A stretch of 64,000 bases of DNA from positions 1-64,000 of the forward strand of contig CANJMI010000013.1 in the NCBI GenBank assembly GCA_947475525.1. Direction: 5' to 3'. The notes under the pieces were generated by a model, which was not told the DNA's origin, did no database searches, and saw only the letters and a program-made list of their open reading frames with translations. Positions 17,755 through 61,267 of this stretch are shown in pieces. Positions within the stretch are counted from its first letter, which is position 1. Each line of letters begins with the position of its first letter. The position numbers and the translations under genes were made by a program. This stretch comes from Polyangiaceae bacterium. GTDB lineage: Bacteria > Myxococcota_A > Polyangia > Polyangiales > Polyangiaceae.

Positions 17755-19191
17755 ATGCCACGCAACGTCACCGCTCAAATCGTATCCGCCGACTTCGATC
17801 CCAAGGGTCTGGAGGTCATCCGTCTCTCAGGTCGCGAGGCCATGAACACGCCGTACCTTTTTGATGTGGACGTGGCCGTCAAAGGGACGACCGGCCCAAC
17901 GATCGCCGACCTGCTCGGCCGCGCGATGGTGCTCGCCTTCACGGAAGGCGACTCGGCAGAACGCGTCATCGCAGGGATCGTAGCCGAGGCCGAAGAGTCG
18001 TATTCCTCCGAGACGGCGGTGCGGACGCTTCGACTCCACATCGTGCCTCGGCTCTTCCGCCTCACGCAGATCCGGCTCACGGAAAAGTACGCGGGGACTC
18101 TCTCAGAAATCATTGAGAAAAAGCTCAACGACTGCGATGTCCCGTTCGAAACCCTCTTCTCGACGACGTACGCGGACCCCGCCGGCACCTTCGTGGCGCA
18201 GCACTTCGAGACGGACCTCGACTTCTTGAACCGCCGCTGCGAGCACTACGGAATCGCCTACTATTTCCAAACCGGAAGCAATGGCGACTGCGTCTTCATC
18301 AGCGATGACAACCGGTTCCTCGATCGACGCGCGGACCTCGTCGTCCCCTTCCAGGCGCGTGGCGAACGCAAAGACGTCTACGCCCTTACGGCGCGGGGAC
18401 GCATGGCGCCCACGAAGTACCTCGTCAGCGACTACAACTACCAGGCGCCGAGCGTCGACCTCGTCGGCGAGACGGACCTCGCCACCGGAACCGGCGGCGG
18501 CGTGGTCGAGTACGGCGCGAACGTAAAGACGCAAGAGGACGCTTCGCTGCTGTCGCGCGTGCGCGCCGAAGAGCAGGCGGCCCAGCAGTTTGTCTTTCGC
18601 GGCGAGAGCGACCGGCCCGAACTTCAAGCCGGCCTTGTCTTCAAGCTCGAAGGCCACCCCACGCTCGGCGATCTCGAGCTCCTCGTCACCGAGGTGGAGC
18701 ACTCGGTGCAACAACCGGCTCTCCGAACCGGAGACGGCGGGCTCGCCTACTCGAATCACTTCAAGGCGATCCCCGCGAGCGTCGCGTTCCGCCCGGCGCG
18801 CGTGACGCCGGTTCCGCGCATCTCAGGCCTCATGAGCGGCATCGTGCTGTCACGGCCGGACGGCGCGGCCGACCGTCCGTGGCTCGACGAATTTGGGCGC
18901 TACCGCATCCAGTTGATGTGCGAACTCTTCGACTTGAGCGGACGTCAGCGCAACACGCGCTCCATGCGGATGCTGCAAGCGTCGGCGGGGGCGGGCTATG
19001 GCATTCACTTCCCGCTTCGGCCCGGCACCGAAGTCATGCTGGCCTACGTCAACGGCGATCCCGATCGCCCCCTTATCGTCGGCGCCGTGCCGAACCAGGT
19101 AACCCCCTCGCCCGTCACCGACACCGAGCCTCTCTACAACCGCATCTCCACGTCGTCCGGGATCTTCCTCGAAATGGAAGACTCAGACTGA
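17755..19191 (+). CDS. vgrG: Short VgrG spike protein (no beta-helix)
   Basis: 478 residues. ATG at 17755 follows the methyltransferase stop by 2 nt. Gp27-like part: TPYLFDVDVAV, LRLHIVPRLFRLTQ, and the signature DLDFLNRRCEHYGIAYYFQ (about residues 155-173). Gp5-like OB fold: DEFGRYRIQLM, GYGIHFPLRPGTEVMLAYV, NGDPDRPLIVGAVPN. The protein stops soon after STSSGIFLEMED, where most VgrGs continue into a long beta-helix. It would form the T6SS spike base, exporting the proteins encoded in the same operon; the missing shaft may be supplied by the divergent 1061-residue protein. It is convergent with the beta-helix lipoprotein gene. Confidence 0.95.
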   Translation: MPRNVTAQIVSADFDPKGLEVIRLSGREAMNTPYLFDVDVAVKGTTGPTIADLLGRAMVLAFTEGDSAERVIAGIVAEAEESYSSETAVRTLRLHIVPRLFRLTQIRLTEKYAGTLSEIIEKKLNDCDVPFETLFSTTYADPAGTFVAQHFETDLDFLNRRCEHYGIAYYFQTGSNGDCVFISDDNRFLDRRADLVVPFQARGERKDVYALTARGRMAPTKYLVSDYNYQAPSVDLVGETDLATGTGGGVVEYGANVKTQEDASLLSRVRAEEQAAQQFVFRGESDRPELQAGLVFKLEGHPTLGDLELLVTEVEHSVQQPALRTGDGGLAYSNHFKAIPASVAFRPARVTPVPRISGLMSGIVLSRPDGAADRPWLDEFGRYRIQLMCELFDLSGRQRNTRSMRMLQASAGAGYGIHFPLRPGTEVMLAYVNGDPDRPLIVGAVPNQVTPSPVTDTEPLYNRISTSSGIFLEMEDSD

Positions 19192-19215
19192 GACGGCCCT
19201 CACCGGTGCGAGCGC

Positions 19216-20814
19216 CTACGGCTCCAAGGCGCCTACGGACGGGGCGCTCGGGCGCGTCTTGCCGGCGTAGTCTTTCTTGGGGGCGAGCGGATCGGCGGCG
19301 CCTGCGCCAATGAGGGCGCTGCCGATCTTCGGAGTGAGGTTGGCCTTGGGGGTGGGGAACGAGCCTGCCGCGGTCAGCTTCGGATCGCTCGTGAGCGTAG
19401 GGCCGGCGCTCGCGTAACCCGTGATGCTGTTTTTTCCCGAGCCGCACTCGGGCAGCGGGTTTCCGCCGTTGTAAAAGGCGTTGTGGTTCATCTGCAGCTC
19501 GATGACGCCGTTGCCGTCGTCGCTCGCATCGAGTGCGCACGTCGCGTCCCCCGCCGCGGCGCCGAAGAAGTTGTTCACGACCTTGCAATTCTTGTTGGTG
19601 AGCGCTTCGCCAACGCGCTTCGCCTGGCCCCACTCTTCGTAGATGCCGTCTTCGAGCACGCTCGGGTACATCCGCATGAAATCGTGGGATTGCACGATGC
19701 TGTACCCGGGCGTAAACCAGATCGAGTTGTTGATCGCTGTACACCCCCAGCACCCGTAAAACGTCACGCCGCCATCGGCCGCGTTGATGATGACGTTGTT
19801 CCGAGCGACAACTCCGTAGGCCTCGCTCGGGAAGTCGGTCGGCCACATGAAGTTGTTGTTCGTCCCCTCCCCGCCCAAGATGATCGCGCGGTGGAAGACG
19901 CGGTCGAACGAGTTGCCCTCGATGAGGATGTCGTACGACCCGCCCTTGGCCTCGGTGCCTTGGCCCTCGCCGACCATGTCGTAGAACCGGTTCTTGCAAA
20001 TCGCGGCGTGGTGAACGCCTACGTTGTCGATGCCGTGGCGCGCCGTGCGGCTGATGGTGTTTCCGACGTACCAGACCCACTCGGTCTGGTTCGACTTCGC
20101 GCCGTCGCAGCAGCCGCTCTCGTAGTGGTCCGGGTTCTGGTCACCGTCAGGGCCGCGGTTCATGTTCCGGAGCACATTGTTGCGGACAATGAAGTGGTGA
20201 CTCGGGTTCCACACGCCATAATACTTCGGATCCTCCGGGTGCACAGTGCGGCCGCTAATGTGCACACCGGAGTCGCCGTAGAAGCCGGACTCGGGGCCGA
20301 TGGTGAGGCCTTCCACAGCGATGTAGCTCGAGTGAACGAAGCCAAGCGCCTGGCCGTTACCGTCCGTGCAGGCGATCTGGACGGCGCCTTCGCCCTTGAT
20401 CCAGAGCGGTGCGGCCTTGGTGCGGAGGTGGTCTTCGACGTAGAGGCATTGGCCGGCGTACGTGCCCGGCGCGAGCCTGATGCGCGTAGGCTTCATGACG
20501 TCGGAATTCGCGATGGCCGCACGTAGGCCGTCCATTCCACCGGCCTCGGTGAGGGGCACGTCGATCCATTGAAGGGCGGGTTCGTCGACAAAGAGGGCGT
20601 CGTCGCACGAAATCTTTCCGACCTCGGGTGGAAAGGCGACCTTACCGTCCGACGGGTCGCCCGTCTCGCTCTCTCCGCTCCCGCCTGCCGTCGTCGTGCT
20701 GCTCGAGGTACTCTCGGCACCCGGCTTTTTGGTGCCCACGTTCGAGGAACCGCGGCAGGCGGAGAGCAGACACGAGAGCGTCAAGAGACCGAGCGCCACG
20801 ACGGGTTTCAACAT
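19216..20814 (-). CDS. Right-handed parallel beta-helix lipoprotein
   Basis: 532 residues. Signal peptide with lipobox LSAC, then a Ser/Thr/Gly linker (about residues 23-55) and a long repeat region of polysaccharide-lyase/pectate-lyase type: RIRLAPGTYAG, then coils such as HFIVRNNVLRNMNRG, VWYVGNTISRTARHGIDN, YDILIEGNSFDRVFHRAI and GVVARNNVIINAADGGV. The Asn ladder is typical of carbohydrate-acting or surface beta-helices. No catalytic residues can be assigned confidently. Stands alone, convergent with vgrG. Probably a surface or periplasmic carbohydrate-binding or lyase-like protein. Confidence 0.85.
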   Translation of the reverse strand: MLKPVVALGLLTLSCLLSACRGSSNVGTKKPGAESTSSSTTTAGGSGESETGDPSDGKVAFPPEVGKISCDDALFVDEPALQWIDVPLTEAGGMDGLRAAIANSDVMKPTRIRLAPGTYAGQCLYVEDHLRTKAAPLWIKGEGAVQIACTDGNGQALGFVHSSYIAVEGLTIGPESGFYGDSGVHISGRTVHPEDPKYYGVWNPSHHFIVRNNVLRNMNRGPDGDQNPDHYESGCCDGAKSNQTEWVWYVGNTISRTARHGIDNVGVHHAAICKNRFYDMVGEGQGTEAKGGSYDILIEGNSFDRVFHRAIILGGEGTNNNFMWPTDFPSEAYGVVARNNVIINAADGGVTFYGCWGCTAINNSIWFTPGYSIVQSHDFMRMYPSVLEDGIYEEWGQAKRVGEALTNKNCKVVNNFFGAAAGDATCALDASDDGNGVIELQMNHNAFYNGGNPLPECGSGKNSITGYASAGPTLTSDPKLTAAGSFPTPKANLTPKIGSALIGAGAADPLAPKKDYAGKTRPSAPSVGALEP

Positions 20815-56396: not shown

Positions 56397-56711
56397 TCAC
56401 AAGCCGCGTGGAACGGTGTCGAGATTCACGAGATCGAGCGCATGGCGCAAGAGGGCGCTTCGGTTCGCCTTCGTGTAGCCGCGCTTCTTCAAGTCCTTCA
56501 CCATACCGTCGAGTTTTTCGAGCGTGTCGGTGTACATCGAGATGCAGATCACCTTGTAGTGAGTCGGCTTCTCTGCCGGCTCCTTCACTTTGCGCGAGCT
56601 CCGCGCCGATTCGGTCGGAGCTGCGTAAAACCGCCCGCTGAGGACGCCTTCGACCTCATCGCGGTCGAACAATCGAAGGCTCGCGCTTGCCATATCTTCA
56701 GGTGTGCTCAT
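56397..56711 (-). CDS. Small ribbon-helix-helix-type protein, partner of ParA
   Basis: 104 residues. A disordered N-terminal part (1-48, with a basic Lys/Arg patch SSRKVKEPAEKP) precedes a likely ribbon-helix-helix: strand HYKVICISMYTD, helix LEKLDGMVKDLKKRGY, helix KANRSALLRHALDLVNL. Small RHH proteins with a flexible basic arm are ParA partners in ParA-ParG type partition systems, stimulating the ATPase and binding a centromere-like site. It starts 31 nt after the parA stop, same strand, so it is in the same transcript. No centromere repeat is visible nearby. Confidence 0.75.
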   Translation of the reverse strand: MSTPEDMASASLRLFDRDEVEGVLSGRFYAAPTESARSSRKVKEPAEKPTHYKVICISMYTDTLEKLDGMVKDLKKRGYTKANRSALLRHALDLVNLDTVPRGL

Positions 56712-56742
56712 CGTTTTTTCCCTCTGCTCGTTTCAAAGTCGC

Positions 56743-58095
56743 TCACGCGCGGGTCCCAGTCGAAGCCTCAGCTCCACCTTGGCTCTCGAGGTCACCGAAA
56801 AGCACCGCATCGACGAGGCTCGCGTAGTCTTCAGCCCCATTCGTGCCGGGCGCGTGGTCGAAGATCGAGCGCGCCTGGGCGGGGGCTTCTTTCAGCTTCG
56901 TGGTCGCGCGGATAGGCTTGAGGCAGCGCTCACCGAAGTGACTCCGGAGGGTCTCGAGAGCCTCGGTGCATATGCGTGCGCGTGAGTCGTAGAACGTAGG
57001 CAATACTCCCCAGATTTGCAGGGGATGACGCAACAAGGTGTTGACGTTCTTGACCGTCTTTATCACCTGCCGCACGCCGACGAGCGAGAGGTAGTCGCAG
57101 GCGACCGGAACAAGGACGCTGTCCGCGAGGACGAGCGCGTTCTGGTTCATGAGCGAGAGACTCGGCGAGCAATCGACGATCACGTAATCGTAAGAATCGG
57201 CGACCGCGGACAAGCGCTGCTGGAGCACCCGATCGCGATTTTGACGGCCCGCCAAGTAGAGCTCGGCGGCCGCGAGCGTCTCGTTCGACGGCAAGAGGTC
57301 GAGGCCTGGCCGCAGAGTTTGAATCGCGTCGTCCACGCGCAGTCCCATGACGAGGACATGGTAGAGCGAGCGGTCGCACTTCGCGCCGAGGGAGACGCCG
57401 ACGTTCCCTTGCGAGTCGGTATCGACGAGGAGCACGCGATGGCCACGATCGGCGAGCCCTGCAGCAAGATTGACGCTCGTTGTCGTCTTGCCGGTGCCGC
57501 CCTTGTGGTTGAACACGGCGATGCGCTTCGGGCTTCGGCGAAGGCCTACGGTCGCAGGGGCTGAGGCCGTCCGGGCCGCGATGCTGGGGGGGCGCTCGGC
57601 GAAGAAGGAAGTCTGCGCGACATCGCTCGTCGGCTGGGTCTCATGGGGCGCGGCCTTGGTCGCAAGCGGCTGCACTCCGCTCACGCGATCGCCAAGCGTT
57701 GGCTCGACTTCCGTGTCGTCTTTGCGGCGCATCGGGTGCGCGTCTGGAGCGGGGGCACGCGTCTCTTCGGGAGCGAGCGATTGACTGGCAATCTCGCCGA
57801 GCCGCATGCCTTGTCCCTCACGGATGAGCTGCGAGCGGCAAGGCATCGAGCACGCGTAACGTCGCTTGCCTGATGCATAGAAAACCTGCGACGCCAGCGC
57901 GACTCGAAAACGCTTGGCGCAGGCGTCACAGCCCACCGCCTCGTCCGCGACGTCGTTGCCGTGGACGTGGCTCTTCTCGAGACAGACCTGGGAACAGAAG
58001 AAGACGAATCCGCCATTCCGCTCTTCCATTTGGTAGCGAAAAATAACGGCAAAAGACGTGTTACAGACGGTGCAGCTCTCGCGAATATCAGCCAC
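56743..58095 (-). CDS. ParA-family ATPase with two N-terminal treble-clef zinc fingers
   Basis: 450 residues from GTG 58095, with GGGAG about 7 nt upstream. Residues 200-440 are a ParA/MinD ATPase: deviant Walker A KGGTGKTTTS, LLVDTDSQGNVG, VIVDCSPSLS, VPVACDYLSLVGV. Residues 8-38 and 56-86 hold two fingers with exactly the same spacing, Cx2C-x22-Cx3C (C8, C11, C34, C38; C56, C59, C82, C86), of TRASH/MYM-like shape (FFCSQVCLE). A disordered link (95-195) joins them to the ATPase. It is followed by a ribbon-helix-helix gene. It probably positions DNA or a protein cluster; the fingers may tether the partner. Confidence 0.9.
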   Translation of the reverse strand: MADIRESCTVCNTSFAVIFRYQMEERNGGFVFFCSQVCLEKSHVHGNDVADEAVGCDACAKRFRVALASQVFYASGKRRYACSMPCRSQLIREGQGMRLGEIASQSLAPEETRAPAPDAHPMRRKDDTEVEPTLGDRVSGVQPLATKAAPHETQPTSDVAQTSFFAERPPSIAARTASAPATVGLRRSPKRIAVFNHKGGTGKTTTSVNLAAGLADRGHRVLLVDTDSQGNVGVSLGAKCDRSLYHVLVMGLRVDDAIQTLRPGLDLLPSNETLAAAELYLAGRQNRDRVLQQRLSAVADSYDYVIVDCSPSLSLMNQNALVLADSVLVPVACDYLSLVGVRQVIKTVKNVNTLLRHPLQIWGVLPTFYDSRARICTEALETLRSHFGERCLKPIRATTKLKEAPAQARSIFDHAPGTNGAEDYASLVDAVLFGDLESQGGAEASTGTRA

Positions 58096-58247
58096 GCAAA
58101 TCTCCCTTGAGCGCCGATGGGTGGTTAAGCCCCTCGATAAGTGCTCGCGGAAGTACTGACCACGGGCCGCCAACTCGGGCCAACAATTCGCGTCGATTTT
58201 TTTGAGAGCGTGACGCTCGATGCACCGGCCGCTGCGGCGTCGCTCGC

Positions 58248-59819
58248 TCAGTGGCGGAAGTGACGAGCGCCCGTGAACACCATCGCCACGCCGAGCGCGT
58301 CGGCCGCCGCGATCACGTCGTCATCCTTCACACTGCCGCCAGGCTGAGCGATGGCCGTCACCCCGCGCGCCGCAGCCATCTCGACGCCGTCGGGGAATGG
58401 GAAGAACGCATCCGAGCCGAGGGCGCTGCCTTTGACCCTGTCGCCGGCTTTGTCGCACGCGATGGCGACGCTGACGACGCGCGACATTTGCCCGGCCCCG
58501 ACTCCGACGACCTGGTGGCCACCCGCTACGGGCTGCGCGAGCACGATGGCGTTGCTCTTCACGTGTTTGCACGTCTTCCAGGCAACCTCGAGGGCCGCGA
58601 GCTCCTCCGCAGTTGGGGCTCGTTTGGTGACCACGCGCCCCGACGCAACCTCACGGTCGCCCGTCGTGTCGGCATTCTGAACGACGAATCCACCGCCGAT
58701 GCGTTTGAGCTCGAGCCCTCGCGCACAGCTGCCTTCACCGACCCGCACGAGCCGCAGGTTTTTCTTTTTGTGAAGGATCGCGAGCGCACTCGGCGAGAAG
58801 CCCGGTGCAACGACCGCCTCGATAAACGTCTCGGAAATCACGTGGGCCGTCGCCTCATCACACGGGCGGTTGAGCGCGACGATGCCGCCAAACGCGCTCA
58901 GAGGATCGGCCTCGCGTGCGAGCCGGTAGGCCTCGTGAAGGTCACCATGAGTCGCAAGTCCGCACGGATTCGTATGCTTGATCACCGCCGCGGCGGGCTC
59001 GGAAAACTCGCGCACGACCTCGAGCGCCGCATCGAGATCGACGAGGTTGTTGAAGGAGAGTTCTTTGCCGCCAGCTCCGATGCTCTCGGCGAAGGCCAGG
59101 CTCTCGCTCGCCGCATGGCGCTCCCGGTACCACGCCGCGCCTTGATGCGGATTTTCGCCGTATCGGAGGGACGCGACGCGCTCGAGCGCCAAGGTGAGGT
59201 AAGGCGGGAACGTTGCGTTCGCGGCTCCGGCTTGATCGGCGTGATGCGTCTCGGCGGCGGCAGACAAAGTCGCGGCGATGGCGCCGTCGTACGCGGCTGT
59301 GTGGGCGAACGCCTTTGCCGCGAGGCGCTTTCGGGTAGCGAGGGTGGGCCCGTCGGCAAGCTCCGCCTGAACGGCGGCATAGTCCGCGGGATCGCAAACC
59401 ACGGTGACCCTCTCATGATTCTTCGCCGCGCTTCGCAGCATCGAAGGGCCGCCGATGTCGATGTTCTCGACGGTATCTTCGTACGACGCTCCGCGGGCCA
59501 CCGTCGCCTCGAATGGGTAGAGGTTCACGACGACGAGACAGATGAGCTCGGCGCCGAGCCGTGCGAGGTCCGCCGCATCCTTCGATTCCCGCGCGAGGAT
59601 CCCGCCATGCACCCGAGGATGAAGCGTCTTGACTCGTCCATCCATCACCTCCGGTGAGCCGGTGTACTCCTCGACCGAGGTGACCTCGATGCCCGCCGCA
59701 CGGAGCGTGGCCAAGGTCCCGCCCGTCGACAAAAGCTCGGTTCCGCCTTGTCGCAAGGCCCGCGCAAATTCAACGATTCCGGTTTTATCCGAGACACTGA
59801 TGAGGGCACGTCGCAGCAT
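58248..59819 (-). CDS. purH: Bifunctional AICAR formyltransferase/IMP cyclohydrolase
   Basis: 523 residues. Catalyses the last two steps of IMP synthesis. N-terminal cyclohydrolase (1 to about 195): ALISVSDKTG, STGGTLATLRAAG, GRVKTLHPRVHGG, NIDIGGPSMLRSAAKNHE. C-terminal formyltransferase: LRYGENPHQGA, the catalytic KHTNPCGLA, and the end SDAFFPFPDGVEMAA with AQPGGSVKD. Full length with all key residues. Its neighbours are not purine genes. Confidence 0.98.
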   Translation of the reverse strand: MLRRALISVSDKTGIVEFARALRQGGTELLSTGGTLATLRAAGIEVTSVEEYTGSPEVMDGRVKTLHPRVHGGILARESKDAADLARLGAELICLVVVNLYPFEATVARGASYEDTVENIDIGGPSMLRSAAKNHERVTVVCDPADYAAVQAELADGPTLATRKRLAAKAFAHTAAYDGAIAATLSAAAETHHADQAGAANATFPPYLTLALERVASLRYGENPHQGAAWYRERHAASESLAFAESIGAGGKELSFNNLVDLDAALEVVREFSEPAAAVIKHTNPCGLATHGDLHEAYRLAREADPLSAFGGIVALNRPCDEATAHVISETFIEAVVAPGFSPSALAILHKKKNLRLVRVGEGSCARGLELKRIGGGFVVQNADTTGDREVASGRVVTKRAPTAEELAALEVAWKTCKHVKSNAIVLAQPVAGGHQVVGVGAGQMSRVVSVAIACDKAGDRVKGSALGSDAFFPFPDGVEMAAARGVTAIAQPGGSVKDDDVIAAADALGVAMVFTGARHFRH

Positions 59820-59935: not shown

Positions 59936-61267
59936 ATGCGCACGACCGCCTTGACTCTGGCTCTACTCGCGGCTTGCGGCGCGCGGACCGAGCTTACCCG
60001 CGGCCATCGCGGGAACGCAGCCGGCTCGTCAACAAACGGCGCGGACGGCGCGGGCGGCGCCACGACGGACAGCACGACGACCTCGGTCGGTGGCAGCGGA
60101 GGAGCCGCCCCATCCACCACCGGAACGATGAGCACGACGGGCACGGGCGGAAACCTCGACCTCGTGTGCGACACTCTCACGGCGAGCGGACAGCTCACCA
60201 CGATCCCAACGCTCGGGCCGGGCACCTCGGACAACGCGCGCTTTCACCTTCTCGACGCAACGCGACTCGCCGTATTTCATCGGCCCTTCGACTCGACGCT
60301 CGGACTGCGACTCGCCAGCACGACCGTTGAATGGACCCAAGCTTGGCCGCCCAAGAGTGACGCGCCCGTGCAAATCATCGCGAACCTCAAAGAGAGCTTC
60401 GCCATCGACAAAAGTGCACATCCGCTCGTCGCGGTTCTCACGCCGCACGCAGAGGCACCCGGCGTCGCCTTCGGAACGGTTGATCCCGCCGTCGGCGCGT
60501 GGGTCCCGAAGCTCACCGCGGATTTCTCCGCCGATCGCTCGGTGTTCGTTCGCTACGGCCTCGGCGAGTATTTCATAGGTATGAGCGCCCCGGGCACCTC
60601 GCCCGGCGGTTCGACTCAACTTCGTGCAGCCTTCTACGACGGCAGCAAGCTACGCGGCCCTTACAACGTCGGCTGCAGCGCGACTCCGATTCTTGGCGAC
60701 GCTCTTGCCATCCCCAAGGGCTGGCTGCTCGCACGCACGGCCCCGCAGCAGGCGACCTGCAACCCCGCGCTCCCGGCCCCGAATAGCCAAGCCATCAGCA
60801 TCGATCTCATCGTGGGCGGCATGCCGCTCATCGGCGGAGAAGTCCCCTTCGGCGGAAAAAGCCATCAGCTCGCCTTCGTCCCTCGCGGCGACGGCGCGTG
60901 GCTTCTCTATTGGTCCGATGCGATCACGCTCTCGGGCCTGGCCATCGACTCATTCGGAAAAATTGAGGGCGTCGTTCCGATCGCCAAGTTGACGGAAAAG
61001 TCGTTCGCGTTCGCCGCCGACGCCCTCGATGACGGAATGGTCGTCGTCCTCTTCGACGAGCTCTCGTCGGGTGAAACGACCTTGCGCACGATCGTAACCA
61101 ACGCCAACGGCACCACGATCGCCACCGCCTCCCTCGCGAACCCGCCGAAGCTGACCACCCTGCCCCAAGTCGCGTTCGACCCCGCCACGCGCCAAGTGCT
61201 CGTCGGCTTCGCGGGGATCACCAACGCCGTGCAGTCGGTGTACCTCGCCCGCTACCAGTGCGAGTGA
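59936..61267 (+). CDS. Lipoprotein of unknown function with Gly/Thr/Ser linker
   Basis: 443 residues. Short signal peptide with lipobox LAAC immediately followed by GARTEL, a start seen in many Polyangiales lipoproteins. A linker rich in Gly, Thr and Ser (about 20-72, for example TTTSVGGSGGAAPS) leads to a beta-rich domain of about 370 residues with repeated blade-like strands (LDATRLAVFHRPF, VFVRYGLGEYFIGMS, GAWLLYWSDAITLSG, MVVVLFDELSSG), suggesting a beta-propeller. No enzyme motif. Convergent with lon, 4 nt between stops. Confidence 0.75.
   Translation: MRTTALTLALLAACGARTELTRGHRGNAAGSSTNGADGAGGATTDSTTTSVGGSGGAAPSTTGTMSTTGTGGNLDLVCDTLTASGQLTTIPTLGPGTSDNARFHLLDATRLAVFHRPFDSTLGLRLASTTVEWTQAWPPKSDAPVQIIANLKESFAIDKSAHPLVAVLTPHAEAPGVAFGTVDPAVGAWVPKLTADFSADRSVFVRYGLGEYFIGMSAPGTSPGGSTQLRAAFYDGSKLRGPYNVGCSATPILGDALAIPKGWLLARTAPQQATCNPALPAPNSQAISIDLIVGGMPLIGGEVPFGGKSHQLAFVPRGDGAWLLYWSDAITLSGLAIDSFGKIEGVVPIAKLTEKSFAFAADALDDGMVVVLFDELSSGETTLRTIVTNANGTTIATASLANPPKLTTLPQVAFDPATRQVLVGFAGITNAVQSVYLARYQCE

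Follow-up and report, generated by a model that had tools for sequence, protein, structure and literature searches.

A zinc-finger-bearing ParA ATPase and its ribbon-helix-helix partner form a putative accessory chromosomal module in Myxococcota

The locus described here lies in a window (the whole stretch of DNA analysed) of 64,000 nucleotides from a Polyangiaceae bacterium. It encodes a ParA/Soj-type ATPase with two zinc fingers at its N terminus and, from a gene in the same orientation that begins 31 nt beyond the ParA stop codon, a small ribbon-helix-helix (RHH) protein. The upstream neighbour of the ATPase gene is purH (58248–59819, likewise on the minus strand), and surE lies past the RHH gene on the opposite strand. 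The features of the locus are as follows, with the basis for each in brackets.

56743–58095, minus strand: ParA/Soj-type ATPase, 450 aa from a GTG start, with two zinc fingers in tandem at the N terminus (translation, Pfam, Foldseek)
57982–58074, minus strand: zinc finger 1, residues 8–38, Cx2C-x22-Cx3C (translation, orthologue spacing, alignment, zf-FCS, L24e superposition)
57838–57930, minus strand: zinc finger 2, residues 56–86, Cx2C-x22-Cx3C (translation, orthologue spacing, alignment); the finger retained in one-finger orthologues
57541–57765, minus strand: linker, approximately residues 111–185, probably disordered (pLDDT under 50 and alignment)
56797–57528, minus strand: ParA ATPase domain, residues ~190–433 (KGGTGKTT, DTDSQGN and DCSPS motifs intact)
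56397–56711, minus strand: RHH partner, 104 aa (RHH_1 in homologues; downstream of ParA in most loci)
56625–56672, minus strand: RHH N-terminal motif LFDRDEVEGVLSGRFY, a candidate ATPase-contact peptide (conserved in the alignment; role inferred)
58127–58146, minus strand: candidate operator of the RHH protein, GAGCACTTATCGAGGGGCTT, an imperfect match to the family palindrome gaaGCgCTTCnnGAAGcGCttc (cross-validated motif search)

Further along, a gene-sized slot adjoining lon holds a 443-aa open reading frame (59936–61267, plus strand) with no Pfam match and a secreted or lipoprotein-type look.

The ATPase domain matches Pfam AAA_31 (E 2.7e-53) and CbiA (E 3.8e-22), both above the cut-off, its best Foldseek matches are Soj/ParA structures, and it shares 39% identity with the host's own Soj. 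In an alignment of 37 orthologues, the deviant Walker A motif (KGGxGKT), the Walker A′ motif (DxDxQGN) and the Walker B motif with its following proline are invariant, as are N196, K198–T205, D225, D227 and D308. Two arginines are candidate DNA contacts, R396 being invariant and R372 conserved in over 90% of the same alignment. Such conservation of nucleotide-binding and candidate DNA-contact residues suggests that the ParA cycle is functional. Alignment also indicates that the linker between the fingers and the ATPase is long in the host's family and short in other families. Assignment to a defence system was considered and rejected, the PADLOC match being weak and confined to the P-loop.

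The original prediction described a ParA carrying an added module of two fingers with identical spacing, and the translated 450-aa protein agrees exactly: Soj-like motifs stand intact behind finger 1, CTVC-x22-CSQVC (C8, C11, C34 and C38), and finger 2, CDAC-x22-CSMPC (C56, C59, C82 and C86). Across the phylum, finger 2 keeps the Cx2C-x22-Cx3C spacing in 40 of 40 orthologues and finger 1 keeps x22 in 36 of 40, the other four having insertions of 1–9 residues. All eight finger cysteines, together with F15, Q22 and F63, are invariant among the 37 aligned orthologues, and Q70 is nearly so. Profiles of the two fingers align to each other across all 35 columns (hhalign probability 99%) and have in common the pattern C-x2-C-x3-F-x6-Q-x11-C-S-x2-C. 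The two profiles are homologous, which therefore supports duplication of one finger type, as had been proposed.

Pfam zf-FCS matches 27 of 28 family members (best E 3e-9), with the YHS and TRASH models ranking behind; the window protein's own match (residues 7–41, 17.5 bits) is below the Pfam cut-off. For the pooled finger profile, the best full-length solved match is archaeal ribosomal protein L24e, which reads CSYC-x22-CSSKC. Modelling of the finger fold, which the original prediction had called for, gave an AlphaFold2 model with pLDDT mostly 84–95 in which finger 1 superposes on L24e with an rmsd of 1.9 over 43 residues and a modest Z score of 6.2. Foldseek searches with the fingers returned weak E-values and an L24e probability of 0.93. 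The fingers share with L24e and zf-FCS (MYM-type) the Cx2C-x22-Cx3C spacing, the FCS motif and the treble-clef element order, and differ from them in standing in tandem, fused to a ParA ATPase. Because zinc in L24e occupies a structural site, the invariant Cys4 site of the fingers, which has the L24e spacing, looks structural too; that the fingers bind zinc at all is inferred from the cysteine pattern and the model. With the Cx2C…Cx3C pattern, FCS-type motif and treble-clef fold that mark the TRASH clan, the fingers are by profile and model members of it (zf-FCS/L24e-like). This Pfam clan unites zf-FCS, YHS, archaeal TRASH and L24e, and zf-FCS fingers bind nucleic acid in some proteins and protein in others (PMC4047054).

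The finger-bearing ATPase is present in 52 of 59 relatives. A finger profile matches 126 of 377 Myxococcota genomes, several of the matches covering a single finger; several genomes in the comparison are fragmentary. When a profile of the ATPase half was run on public genomes, 80 loci were kept, including loci from Polyangium, Sandaracinus-like genomes, Lujinxingia (Bradymonadales) and many other Myxococcota, and those with informative titles were Myxococcota or deltaproteobacterial. The original prediction had staked itself on a search for ParA proteins with paired N-terminal fingers and on persistence of the fingers at the same genomic place; orthologues across Myxococcota do carry fingers, and those beside purH keep both. 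Far from being peculiar to this locus, the fingers are, on this comparison, conserved in a family that spans Myxococcota.

Several lineages of the host's class, and one more distant family, have just one finger, adjoining the ATPase, and the one-finger orthologues L141–L152 and L156 still have the RHH gene downstream. In a tree of the ATPase domain, from which the finger columns were excluded, most one-finger proteins form one clade. Parsimony on this quick tree, which has some long branches, gives four changes in finger number and does not settle their direction; in L227, one of the four, a second finger is still present in degenerate form. No zero-finger orthologue was seen wherever the N terminus was readable: apparent cases were truncated, masked or missed by the search pattern, and L193 and L187 have two fingers. 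Among PLSDB plasmids none encodes these fingers, and matches elsewhere are to the ParA part only. In the open-licence literature, with subscription papers mostly outside the search, we found no description of a zinc-finger ParA with an RHH protein, and titles and abstracts yielded nothing relevant on a TRASH domain or treble clef together with ParA.

Alone, the window RHH protein has no Pfam match. RHH_1 matches 28 of its 45 aligned homologues (best E 1.8e-4), which places them among the RHH_1/CopG proteins, built of a strand and two helices; the homologue alignment contains the SRSxLIR-type helix motif of such proteins and a conserved N-terminal motif with the consensus LDxDEVxxVLxxxFY. In a profile search, the RHH gene lies directly downstream of the ATPase gene in 104 of 138 loci, commonly at a spacing of −4 to +20 nt with many 4-nt overlaps. 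RHH is present in 52 of the 59 relatives; 51 of them have it together with the ATPase, six have neither, the two genes being lost together, and two are discordant (Fisher P 1e-6, kinship among relatives being ignored). The coupling of the two genes that had been predicted is thus borne out by adjacency and by concordance in 57 of 59 relatives, and the pair is, on comparative grounds, ancient and conserved. One discordant genome (G028) reflects a contig end. In the other (G006), the ATPase gene is gone and the RHH gene directly follows purH (L241, G006:C178, 4509–4967), its N-terminal motif, LETDGALSTSYY, having an eroded look. On this one case, erosion where the ATPase is missing hints that the motif serves ATPase contact.

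In Bradymonadales-type genomes and some other clades with a two-finger ATPase, RHH is not detectable anywhere. Both fingers are therefore kept without RHH in several clades and cannot serve RHH binding alone. From the sequences compared, the fingers do not require RHH as their ligand and most likely serve another partner of the ATPase. As to the genes found at such loci, the position of RHH after the ATPase is taken by a 460–520-aa membrane protein at the Bradymonadales-type loci L088, L089, L091 and L161–L170; at the RHH-less loci L096, L097, L098 and L192, inspection by eye placed an SpoU/TrmL-type RNA methyltransferase-like gene directly after the ATPase.

Expectation-maximisation on 72 non-redundant upstream regions of RHH-bearing loci recovered the 20-bp palindrome gaaGCgCTTCnnGAAGcGCttc with a likelihood of 200, compared with 47–53 in shuffled sets. 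Two-fold cross-validation gave scores of 7.3 and 10.8 bits for the test regions and of 1.9 and 5.0 for shuffles; about half of the RHH-bearing test regions exceeded 95% of their own shuffles, the palindrome being strong in only about half of RHH-bearing loci. Upstream regions of RHH-less loci scored like shuffles. RHH-bearing loci did not stand out from others in a palindrome scan that assumed no particular sequence, but did so under the motif model. The window copy, GAGCACTTATCGAGGGGCTT at 58127–58146, is imperfect, lies 32–51 nt before the ATPase start codon and is the sole site with two or fewer mismatches in the host genome. No repeated centromere-like array was found there, the 59 relatives had no genome-wide excess of extra sites over control, and a sigma-70 scan did not find a promoter. 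The palindrome, lying upstream of the operon and absent where RHH is absent, suggests autoregulation, which fits a single close site and no excess in relatives better than a multi-repeat centromere does. Elsewhere, a perfect copy (L245:2130–2149, in G013:C49) lies ~30 nt upstream of a small, unrelated gene, possibly for a helix-turn-helix (HTH) protein.

The host also has an ordinary Soj–ParB–parS system. Its soj and parB genes are on the same contig, ~10 kb from the finger-ATPase locus and outside the window (L071:17654–18508, plus strand, and 18539–19435, minus strand), where they are convergent and not one operon. Three parS-like TGTTTCCCGTGAAACA sites, with one mismatch, are clustered on another contig (C1:168752–168916). 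The presence of soj, parB and parS-like sites makes the finger ATPase an additional system. It shares the ATPase domain and motifs of chromosomal Soj/ParA (ParABS), and differs in forming a separate clade, in carrying fingers and in lacking a dedicated HTH-type ParB and parS. With TP228 ParF–ParG and pSM19035 delta–omega, the module shares a ParA-type ATPase and a small RHH protein with an N-terminal tail; in about half of RHH-bearing loci a candidate site lies upstream, where the plasmid modules have a binding site that overlaps the promoter region. By contrast with these systems, it is chromosomal and coexists with soj–parB, its ATPase has zinc fingers, its RHH protein is dispensable in some clades and its palindrome is single, not part of a repeat array. 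It has the RHH gene directly downstream of parA, as in type Ib-like ParA–RHH systems (31 nt in the window), and a single candidate site where those have a centromere of several repeats; delta–omega needs four or more (PMC9499535).

How these parts might work together can be read in several ways. One reading, which we hold to be unlikely, is a transcriptional regulator pair in which the ATPase is an RHH co-repressor, the fingers bind DNA or RNA and no cargo is moved. The operator-like palindrome tracks RHH presence, nucleic-acid binding is possible for L24e-like fingers and RHH persists by itself in the one genome that has lost the ATPase; however, clades with neither RHH nor the palindrome still have the ATPase and its fingers, and the invariant residues of the ATPase suggest a ParA cycle at work. 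A dedicated DNA-partition system seems a little more doubtful still. Here the RHH-bound palindrome would be a centromere, the ATPase would segregate a chromosomal region or former plasmid, and the fingers would stand in for the DNA-binding domain that larger ParAs have at their N terminus. The gene order, ParA then RHH with a site upstream, is that of plasmid ParF–ParG and delta–omega (PMC9499535), and in the host's family the locus is ~10 kb from soj/parB. There is, however, one site and no array; the host has canonical soj–parB with parS-like sites, the ATPase is retained in clades without RHH and PLSDB plasmids lack the fingers.

The original prediction also offered a metal-responsive module. 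In that scheme, metal on the fingers would alter ATPase or repressor activity, in the manner proposed for the TRASH/YHS domains of copper-sensing proteins. Membership of the TRASH clan at the family level is in its favour, and one article proposes archaeal TRASH and YHS domains as metal sensors (PMC4626032). Metal responsiveness finds no support here, because the complete, invariant Cys4 site has the spacing of the structural zinc site of L24e; moreover, among the downstream genes inspected, no metal transport or resistance gene recurs as a direct neighbour. We regard a metal switch as improbable.

The account we favour, with about even confidence in it as a whole, is an accessory chromosomal ParA–RHH module that works alongside the ordinary Soj–ParB–parS system, not in its place, and whose structural zinc fingers probably dock a cargo. 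The ATPase would dimerise with ATP and bind the nucleoid like other ParAs. An RHH dimer would bind the palindrome and repress the operon, and its N-terminal tail would contact or stimulate the ATPase, a scheme taken from RHH-type ParB proteins, in which the N terminus meets ParA and the sites bound overlap the proteins' own promoters (PMC9499535). The fingers would hold structural zinc and offer a surface on which a cargo or adaptor other than RHH could dock; this docking role is probable by analogy. A related possibility, held more tentatively, is that these proteins are orphan positioning ATPases, Myxococcota-wide, with L24e-like fingers that recruit a non-DNA cargo (a protein complex or ribonucleoprotein, for example); RHH would then be an autoregulator confined to certain lineages.

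Chromosomes, plasmids and carboxysomes are among the cargos that ParA-type ATPases position, and membership of this family suggests a positioning function for the module. Natural losses of one finger, of RHH or of the ATPase provide ready comparisons for separating the roles of the parts. In Myxococcota, a phylum known for complex cells, a deeply conserved finger-bearing ParA beside an ordinary ParABS suggests a cargo that has so far escaped notice.
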